Below are positions 12,158-12,406 of a stretch of DNA of 64,000 bases, one piece after another. A program made the translations under genes and the position numbers. The DNA comes from Herbinix sp. (GTDB lineage: Bacteria > Bacillota > Clostridia > Lachnospirales > Lachnospiraceae). Every line of letters begins with the position of its first letter. The first letter of the stretch is position 1. Under the pieces are notes generated by a model. It was not told the origin of the DNA. It did not search any database and saw only the letters and a program-made list of their open reading frames with translations. The DNA lies in assembly GCA_029256105.1 (NCBI GenBank), contig JAQSYO010000007.1:1-64000 (forward strand), in the 5' to 3' direction.

Positions 12158-12398
12158 AGGAGGATCATTCCTCCTTAAATTAATAAATATGGAGGCAATA
12201 CCGCCCAATCGATTTTAAAGATGGGGTGAAAGCCTCTAAATTAGGAGGTATAAACGCTCCTAATCATTTTTTATAGTATAGGAGAAAATTCTCCTATACT
12301 ACAAGGGAAGATAATTCCTTCAAAACAAACAAGGGGGTAATACCTCTAAATTAATTTTTTAAAAACGGGAGGACAAAATCCTCCTAAATTACAGGAGG
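12158..12398 (+). promoter_or_regulatory. array of eight Shine-Dalgarno/anti-Shine-Dalgarno mini-hairpins before ilvC
   Basis: Eight consecutive short inverted repeats, each a GGAGG-like 5' arm, a 3-9 base loop and a CCTCC-like 3' arm: 12158/12175, 12191/12205, 12223/12236, 12241/12263, 12274/12301, 12303/12320, 12333/12346 and 12368/12384. They are followed by the genuine AGGAGG at 12393-12398. The last CCTCCT can pair either backwards (6 bp) or forwards with the true ribosome site (ATCCTCCT 12378-12385 with AGGAGGAT 12393-12400, 8 bp, 7-base loop). Between units the sequence is AAATTA-rich. The array suggests alternative pairing registers controlling ilvC translation; function is inferred. 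Confidence 0.75.
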
Positions 12399-12406
12399 AT
12401 ATTAAA

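Follow-up and report, generated by a model that had tools for sequence, protein, structure and literature searches.

Tandem Shine-Dalgarno/anti-Shine-Dalgarno units before ilvC and other genes of one bacterial genus: a candidate two-state gate in the last unit

The ilvC leader of the window (the whole 64,000-nucleotide stretch of DNA that was analysed) appears to belong to a lineage-specific family of cis-elements, in which the last unit may serve as a two-state gate on the Shine-Dalgarno (SD) site and the upstream units are mostly separate hairpins; we lean towards this reading at slightly better than even probability. The common architecture is a series of units, each consisting of a decoy SD, a loop, an anti-SD and a spacer, followed by the true SD and then the start codon. 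Comparison of 93 such arrays establishes, from sequence, that the last unit has two predicted helices that are mutually exclusive, covarying and near-isoenergetic. From this we infer that translation is gated by the choice between the two folds, with occupation of the decoy by a ribosome as one possible input.

In the window the array occupies positions 12158-12385, between the stop codon of ilvN (12138) and the ATG of ilvC (12407) (Table 1). Following the earlier note, we take the two ORFs to be ilvN, the acetolactate synthase small subunit, and ilvC, ketol-acid reductoisomerase. The coordinates of that note are correct, and the true SD lies at 12393-12400. A homologue of ilvC was found at E<=1e-80 in 46 of the 60 other genomes searched, and an ilvN homologue lies upstream of ilvC in all 30 loci read, our own included. 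No ORF of ilvB size lies directly upstream of ilvN, and the ORFs that precede it presumably encode glycosyltransferases, which they resemble. A strong sigma-70-type promoter-like match (TTGACA, 17 nucleotides, TACAAT, with TG before the second hexamer; a pattern match only) is present at 11467-11495 upstream of ilvN. The ilvC leader is single-copy in its genome (an assembly rated 7.48% contaminated), apart from the self-match of its own palindrome. The minus-strand ORF behind the second array of the window continues past the window edge.

Table 1 Features of the ilvC leader and its surroundings in the window
Feature	Position	Strand	Remarks
Unit 1, hairpin AGGAGGA/TCCTCCT	12158..12175	+	7 bp, -10.7 kcal/mol
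Unit 2, imperfect, TGGAGG..CCGCCCA	12189..12206	+	arms without a continuous helix of >=4 bp
Unit 3, hairpin GGGGT-GAAA-GCCTC	12223..12236	+	-4.7 kcal/mol
Unit 4, hairpin ATTAGGAG/CTCCTAAT	12240..12264	+	-8.5 kcal/mol
Unit 5, hairpin	12274..12301	+	12 bp, -16.0 kcal/mol
Unit 6, hairpin AGGGAA/TTCCTT	12304..12320	+	-4.3 kcal/mol
Unit 7, hairpin AGGGG/CCTCT	12332..12347	+	-5.6 kcal/mol
Unit 8, candidate switch: decoy SD GGGAGGA, anti-SD TCCTCCT	12367..12385	+	-9.5 kcal/mol internally
Alternative helix, anti-SD ATCCTCCT (12378-12385) with true SD AGGAGGAT	12378..12400	+	inverted repeat; 8 bp, -10.5 kcal/mol
True SD site of ilvC, AGGAGGAT	12393..12400	+	start codon at 12407
ilvC (presumed)	12407..13417	+	ORF, 336 aa
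ilvN (presumed), upstream cistron	11560..12138	+	ORF
Second array in the window: one unit and true SD	388..418	-	precedes a minus-strand ORF starting at 379

A hairpin caller that ignored arm sequence except for purine content called 7 hairpins in the region 12139-12420, with a summed energy of -57.7 kcal/mol. Based on 300 dinucleotide shuffles of the region, the mean is 0.46 hairpins, the maximum 3 and the lowest sum -19.8. The fold of the leader has a z-score of -7.66, and 0 of 200 shuffles folded as well. The eight-hairpin array described in the earlier note is thus real in its seven clean hairpins, with unit 2 imperfect. Its description of the arms as GGAGG/CCTCC does not hold everywhere, given GGGGT/GCCTC in unit 3, AGGGAA/TTCCTT in unit 6 and AGGGG/CCTCT in unit 7.

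The same note had proposed that adjacent units also pair across the gaps, so that the RNA has two mutually exclusive registers, and had called for a comparison of their energies. With arms delimited by hand, and the next arm taken as the 5' arm of the next unit, the within-unit helices sum to -59.3 kcal/mol versus -38.1 kcal/mol for the shifted ones, so that the local register is favoured and pairing across the gaps is only weakly borne out. Units 2, 3 and 8 pair better with the arm of the next unit, unit 8 narrowly (-9.5 versus -10.5). The claim that the last unit has a longer shifted helix is accurate: 8 bp at -10.5 kcal/mol, compared with 6 bp plus one G-U pair at -9.5 kcal/mol. The minimum-energy structure of the full 282-nt leader contains neither helix, which counts against a gate; in it unit 8 forms a long-range helix with unit 1, and the SD is unpaired. 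Ensemble probabilities for the full leader are 0.53 for pairing of the last anti-SD with the true SD, 0.25 for its pairing with its own decoy and 0.20 for an open true SD.

Thirty genes of this genome are preceded by such arrays, ilvC being included in the family. The pattern AGGAGG-N6-CCTCCT, with one mismatch, has 36 forward matches in the genome versus 12 for the reversed pattern, and they are clustered. The chain pattern (SD, anti-SD, SD) has 52 forward and 35 reverse matches versus 26 and 14 for its reversed-pattern control, which is itself inflated by true arrays. In 63 of 65 array regions read in six genomes the terminal SD is followed by a start codon, 59 of these being ATG; the two exceptions are the distal half of the ilvC array and a region ending in masked bases.

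We scanned 30 downstream proteins, from 26 of the 30 own-genome array genes and 4 genes of relatives, against Pfam. A family was found at E<=1e-6 in 26 of the 30, and no functional theme emerged among them. The own-genome families include the acyl carrier protein (ACP) with an adjacent NMO-family gene, an Asp/Lys/Asn-type tRNA synthetase, radC, trigger factor, SOD, isocitrate/isopropylmalate dehydrogenase, flhA, a SIS/GATase enzyme, an ABC transporter, a substrate-binding protein and a PFL-like enzyme. Other array genes are presumably gyrB, nusA, rimP, ileS, minD, carB and pheS; for carB and pheS the names agree with Pfam matches. Since the array genes have no common function, no common signal is visible, which counts against a gate. 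At radC (locus L053, 3085-3240) the array has a 27-base period in frame with an upstream start, which would give an N-terminal extension containing AKSSLQIKE three times, and the array could therefore be translated into radC.

The last unit was analysed in 93 arrays, chosen because all three elements (decoy, anti-SD and true SD) match the 5-base core exactly, the ORF has at least 60 codons and no bases are masked. This exact-core requirement leaves out arrays with a degenerate last unit and, as the core is fixed by how the set was selected, the flanks are the sole free test. The set draws on all listed array regions of four of the 34 genomes of the genus (G000, G004, G006 and G013), eight stretches of G014, one of G024, and the ilvC and nusA leaders of other genomes of the genus. 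Its ortholog groups are nusA (12), ilvC (10), gyrB (4), ACP (3), an unnamed protein of 200-220 aa (3) and six pairs; because nusA and ilvC recur so often, the test was repeated with one array per group. The start codon is GTG or TTG in 4 of the 93.

Beyond the core, the last anti-SD complements the 3' flank of the true SD over a mean of 2.53 nt, versus 1.28 nt when genes are permuted (0 of 5000 permutations reach the observed value), and extends 0.68 nt within its own hairpin. The extension on the true-SD side is the longer in 79 arrays, equal in 11 and shorter in 3. By position, matches occur in 81, 81 and 69 of the 93 arrays at +1, +2 and +3 (expected 59, 51 and 56; 0 of 2000 permutations each), fall to about chance at +4 (28, expected 26) and lie below every permutation at +5 (11, expected 21). 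Using one array per ortholog group (n=58), the counts at +1 to +5 are 51, 52, 45, 16 and 6, with 0, 0 and 8 of 2000 permutations as high for the first three. Little matching is seen at the outer edge of the true SD (+1, 49 of 93, expected 39; +2, 14, expected 25; +1 with one array per group, 24 of 58, expected 20). The decoy helix gains just one base beyond its core (62 of 93, expected 43), and the decoy flank is not a copy of the true SD flank (mean identical run 0.80).

Covariation was scored on a 52-row composite alignment, in which related sequences can beat shuffles without structure. The score for anti-SD and true SD is 0.250 versus 0.082 in shuffled alignments, with 45 cells changed on both sides, and for decoy and anti-SD it is 0.159 versus 0.074, with 23 such cells; in each case 0 of 500 shuffles reach the observed score, and controls with a slid alignment give at most 0.073. 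As many pair types as observed for the decoy helix arose in 64 of 500 shuffles. In the 60 arrays with short spacers, the decoy hairpin averages -10.7 kcal/mol and the anti-SD:true SD helix -11.8 kcal/mol (mean difference -1.15, standard deviation 2.45), and in the 33 with spacers of 31-36 nt the values are -9.9 and -11.1 kcal/mol (mean difference -1.14, standard deviation 1.34). Of the two helices, the shifted one has the lower energy in 47 of 60 and 28 of 33 arrays, respectively, and the gap is near-equal in the two classes despite very different loops. The distance from last anti-SD to true SD is bimodal across the 93 arrays, mostly 7-13 or 31-36 nt with few between; nusA arrays retain the long class, and the class varies between species for ACP and carB.

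With 80 nt of context, the predicted opening of the true SD averages 0.21, rising to 0.53 when the anti-SD is held single-stranded and falling to 0.01 when the decoy is held open. With 60 nt of context, opening is 0.23 in arrays versus 0.44 in 61 control genes that have GGAGG and no CCTCC in the 60 nt upstream. Single arrays range from 0.00 to 0.93, the last anti-SD favouring its decoy in many, and in 5 of 16 divergent arrays a non-proximal anti-SD pairs most strongly with the true SD. The registers of the earlier note are mutually exclusive in the last unit, where they recur and covary in the 93 arrays; as a property of the whole chain they are mostly unsupported.

Among 30 ilvC leaders inspected by eye, our own included, 7 have several units, 6 have one or two and 17 have none; among 30 nusA leaders, likewise by eye, 18 have an array, 10 have none and 2 are masked or cut. 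The array is thus dispensable, given the 17 and 10 leaders that do without one. In genome G006, 7 of 9 arrays (on 4 contigs) precede orthologues of own-genome array genes, an overlap with a chance probability of about 3e-14 (hypergeometric, assuming 33 array genes among about 4300, where our list gives 30). Spacers between units seem unrelated across species at orthologous genes. Taken with the recurrence at the same genes, this indicates from sequence comparison that the arrays either pass down by descent and turn over fast or are built anew at favoured genes. A comparison of relatives, which the earlier note had suggested, thus finds the pairing conserved and the unit number variable.

The arms also track the SD of each gene. 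Three nusA loci (L288, L290 and L303) have GGGAGAAT or GGGAGATT as the true SD and arms of the form GGGAG.../...CTCCC, and a fourth (L295) has GGAGCAAT and the anti-SD arm ATTGCTCC; in nusA orthologues with any of these three SDs, the anti-SD arms complement them. Array counts miss other SDs because the search pattern fixes a GGAGG core: genome G007 has 0 arrays by this pattern, yet four clean GGGAG units stand before its nusA. When GGGAG-type arrays were searched for, a handful turned up at genes other than nusA. Spacers and flanks differ from locus to locus, with the partial exception of CCTCCGTT, which is common after the anti-SD in G014. The G014 loci L118-L124 and eight loci of metagenome-assembled genomes (L150, L169, L175, L178, L182, L205, L214 and L217) have GGAGG..CCTCCG(T/C)T and an A/T-rich spacer of about 31-36 nt. 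Spacers at different loci of this subset have letters in common, as though the element were also moving from gene to gene.

The chain pattern was matched in 31 of 34 genomes of the genus (the Herbinix/Mobilitalea group, which includes the cultured species Mobilitalea sibirica), with 79 forward and 79 reverse matches in G032, and some matches, at low counts as in G022 and G028, are likely chance. We also sampled 392 genomes from the order, 2 of them from the genus. Outside the genus most have 0-8 matches each way, about the level of the reversed control, and no clear second stronghold was seen in the 390 sampled genomes of other genera. Two candidates for array-rich genomes outside the genus, G336 and G151, were rejected when the matched strings were read, their matches being GC-rich and their reversed-pattern controls high. 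A contig-wide scan returned at least 117 stretches, of which 80 were listed; many are in GC-rich genomes, and four Herbinix contigs are among the matches listed. Array regions from these listed matches comprise 18 with a start codon and 59 without, and three of the 18 (L165, L189 and L208) look like chance. Good arrays were also seen on contigs named outside the group: Lachnospiraceae SIG294 (L163), uncultured Clostridium sp. (L177) and Anaerolineaceae MAG4 (L178). These may be mis-binned contigs, members of the group under other names, or true spread. Given high counts in the genus, control-level counts in other genera and three oddly named contigs, we conclude that the genus is the stronghold of the arrays, though perhaps not their only home. 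In two genomes of another family of the order (G280 and G335, genus g20), the hairpin GGAGGCAGAGCCTCCAAGGTTT or near variants recur at several loci upstream of AAGGAGG; this may be a dispersed element that resembles the arrays in shape and has no relation to them.

In the gate reading, the ribosome-binding site of the gene has been duplicated locally into units placed before the true SD. In the ON state the decoy SD would pair with the anti-SD over about 6 bp, leaving the true SD free, and in the OFF state the anti-SD would pair with the true SD over about 8 bp and close the site. The local hairpin would form first in the mRNA, because it is transcribed first, and would leave the true site open. 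Once the decoy is occupied, whether by a ribosome from upstream or by a 30S subunit bound to the copied SD, or once the RNA re-equilibrates, the anti-SD would close the true site, so that the element would set and buffer the translation of a single cistron, often inside an operon. Units farther up would be spacers, spares or decaying former gates, not a signal chain.

The proposal of the earlier note, a register shift that relays the state of one end of the chain to the other, fared differently. Homogeneous arrays, with identical units, can pair in either register, and units 2, 3 and 8 of the window prefer the next arm. Predicted opening alternates with each added unit in several arrays (such as L036, L045, L083 and L129; 0.02, 0.67 and 0.24 in L036 and 0.09, 0.46 and 0.12 in L129), so neighbour effects are possible there. 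Against this, in the window the shift would cost a summed ~21 kcal/mol. The arms of 15 divergent arrays prefer their own partners to other arms (Wilcoxon p = 0.0009), and their pairing with the arm of the next unit does not exceed that with unrelated arms (p = 0.51). Across 26 arrays, mean opening is 0.72 with no unit kept and then flat, at 0.30, 0.31, 0.26 and 0.31 (n = 13) with one to four units. The values for five units (0.06, n = 4) and six units (0.03, n = 2) stem from arrays for which one unit already suffices for a mostly closed site. A chain-wide switch is thus very improbable, parity effects in a few arrays being the part that finds some support.

The main rival to the gate is a neutral origin by local copying, which we rate as the less likely account, though one with real weight. 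The SD region would readily undergo tandem slippage and, through template switching, inverted copying, giving growth at the SD end, homogenisation and upstream decay without regulation. Unit spacers are locus-specific, which implies that the units arose by local duplication, and duplication with inversion or template switching could yield matching anti-SDs without selection. Unit number varies freely among relatives, zero included. Similarity to the proximal unit, 0.93 at rank 2 (n = 39), is down to 0.74 by rank 6 (n = 5), and hairpins that average -9.4 at rank 1 average -7.4 by rank 6; upstream units being less like the proximal one and somewhat weaker suggests that arrays grow at the SD end and decay upstream. 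Several results weigh on the other side. Recurrence at the same genes across species, as in G006, is not what neutral copying leads one to expect, although common descent with turnover fits it too. Copying predicts variable helix ends, whereas here the match ends 3 bases beyond the core and falls under the chance level at +5, and a plain duplication of the ribosome-binding site would not leave a decoy flank unlike that of the true SD. The preference of divergent arms for their own partners points the same way, although units born as palindromes could behave likewise. The sharp helix ends and the asymmetry between decoy and anti-SD flanks thus argue against pure copying, as judged from sequence, and do not exclude it.

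An element for mRNA stability or processing, in which intercistronic hairpins would guard the transcript downstream or upstream of them against nucleases and determine stoichiometry, is improbable. It would suit the strong local hairpins and the genomic context: based on ORFs of at least 80 codons rather than annotated genes, 75 of the 93 array genes have a same-strand ORF upstream and 64 of these start less than 400 nt from its stop. It would leave unexplained why the arms copy the SD and why the anti-SD matches the flank of the true SD, and 15 of the 93 arrays follow an opposite-strand ORF (3 more have no upstream ORF in the fetched stretch). The position before ilvC might point to an amino-acid-responsive leader (T-box or riboswitch) or a terminator array of the ilv operon, to which we give almost no credence. 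No Rfam family reaches its gathering score in 11000-13000, where all five matches fall below it, and a T-box or known riboswitch was rejected on this basis. An intrinsic terminator array was rejected because the coding strand has just one hairpin with a T run (12333) among the 8 units; 4 more terminator-like sites are on the minus strand. Unrelated genes carry the same architecture, which also speaks against a leader specific to ilv.

A broader reading of the gate, which we advance tentatively and regard as rather unlikely, is that the arrays would form a new class of genome-wide cis element. One genus would repeatedly build, renew and discard gates by inverting and tandemly copying the ribosome-binding site of each gene. 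The input would be decoy occupancy, with free 30S subunits closing the true site. Dozens of housekeeping genes would thereby have a ligand-free sensor of initiation capacity, and the sequence of each sensor would track its gene through evolution. If the gate works, it would be a regulator without a ligand domain, protein or small RNA that could be copied from any gene's ribosome site, and riboswitch-like alternative folding could start from nothing. The same genes, bearing 0 to 8 units across related species, offer a natural experiment. Even if neutral, a lineage process that inverts and copies SD sites before essential genes informs leader evolution.

Translational attenuators and riboswitch expression platforms work through an SD, an anti-SD and an anti-anti-SD, and like the arrays they have a pair of mutually exclusive helices, with the SD hidden in one of them. 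In the arrays the anti-SD is complementary to the SD of the gene, as the flank matches (81, 81 and 69 of 93) and covariation (0/500) indicate, and a competing helix that would free the SD is indicated by covariation and by energies within ~1 kcal/mol, on sequence and energy grounds. In contrast to these systems, no known aptamer family was found in the ilvC leader (Rfam, 11000-13000), the third strand of the arrays is a copy of the gene's own SD, and the units stand in tandem before dozens of unrelated genes. RNA thermometers (ROSE, fourU) also conceal the SD in a hairpin; in contrast, the SD helix of the arrays is GC-rich and its predicted opening is nearly flat with temperature. A thermometer was rejected on opening values of 0.22 at 25 C and 0.31 at 65 C in the 93 arrays, compared with 0.41 and 0.55 in the 61 control genes. 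REP/BIME palindromic repeats are likewise short palindromes arrayed between genes, but they are dispersed copies of one sequence, whereas the arrays are local copies of the neighbouring SD. A dispersed REP-like repeat was rejected because spacers and flanks differ between loci and the ilvC leader has no second genomic copy. No description of such arrays was found in the open-access literature searched (titles and abstract openings, with subscription journals mostly outside the search).

The Beggiatoaceae offer another parallel. In that family, sets of TAACTGA direct repeats are reported before the start codons of many unrelated genes, and a translational role has been proposed for them (PMC4679880). 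Both systems place short tandem repeats directly upstream of many start codons. The Beggiatoaceae repeat is reported as a fixed heptamer common to all sites (PMC4679880), whereas arms and spacers of the arrays are locus-specific and match the SD of each gene. Canonical ribosome sites are described as rare in the repeat-containing regions of the Beggiatoaceae (PMC4679880); in the arrays, by contrast, the SD itself is the repeat.
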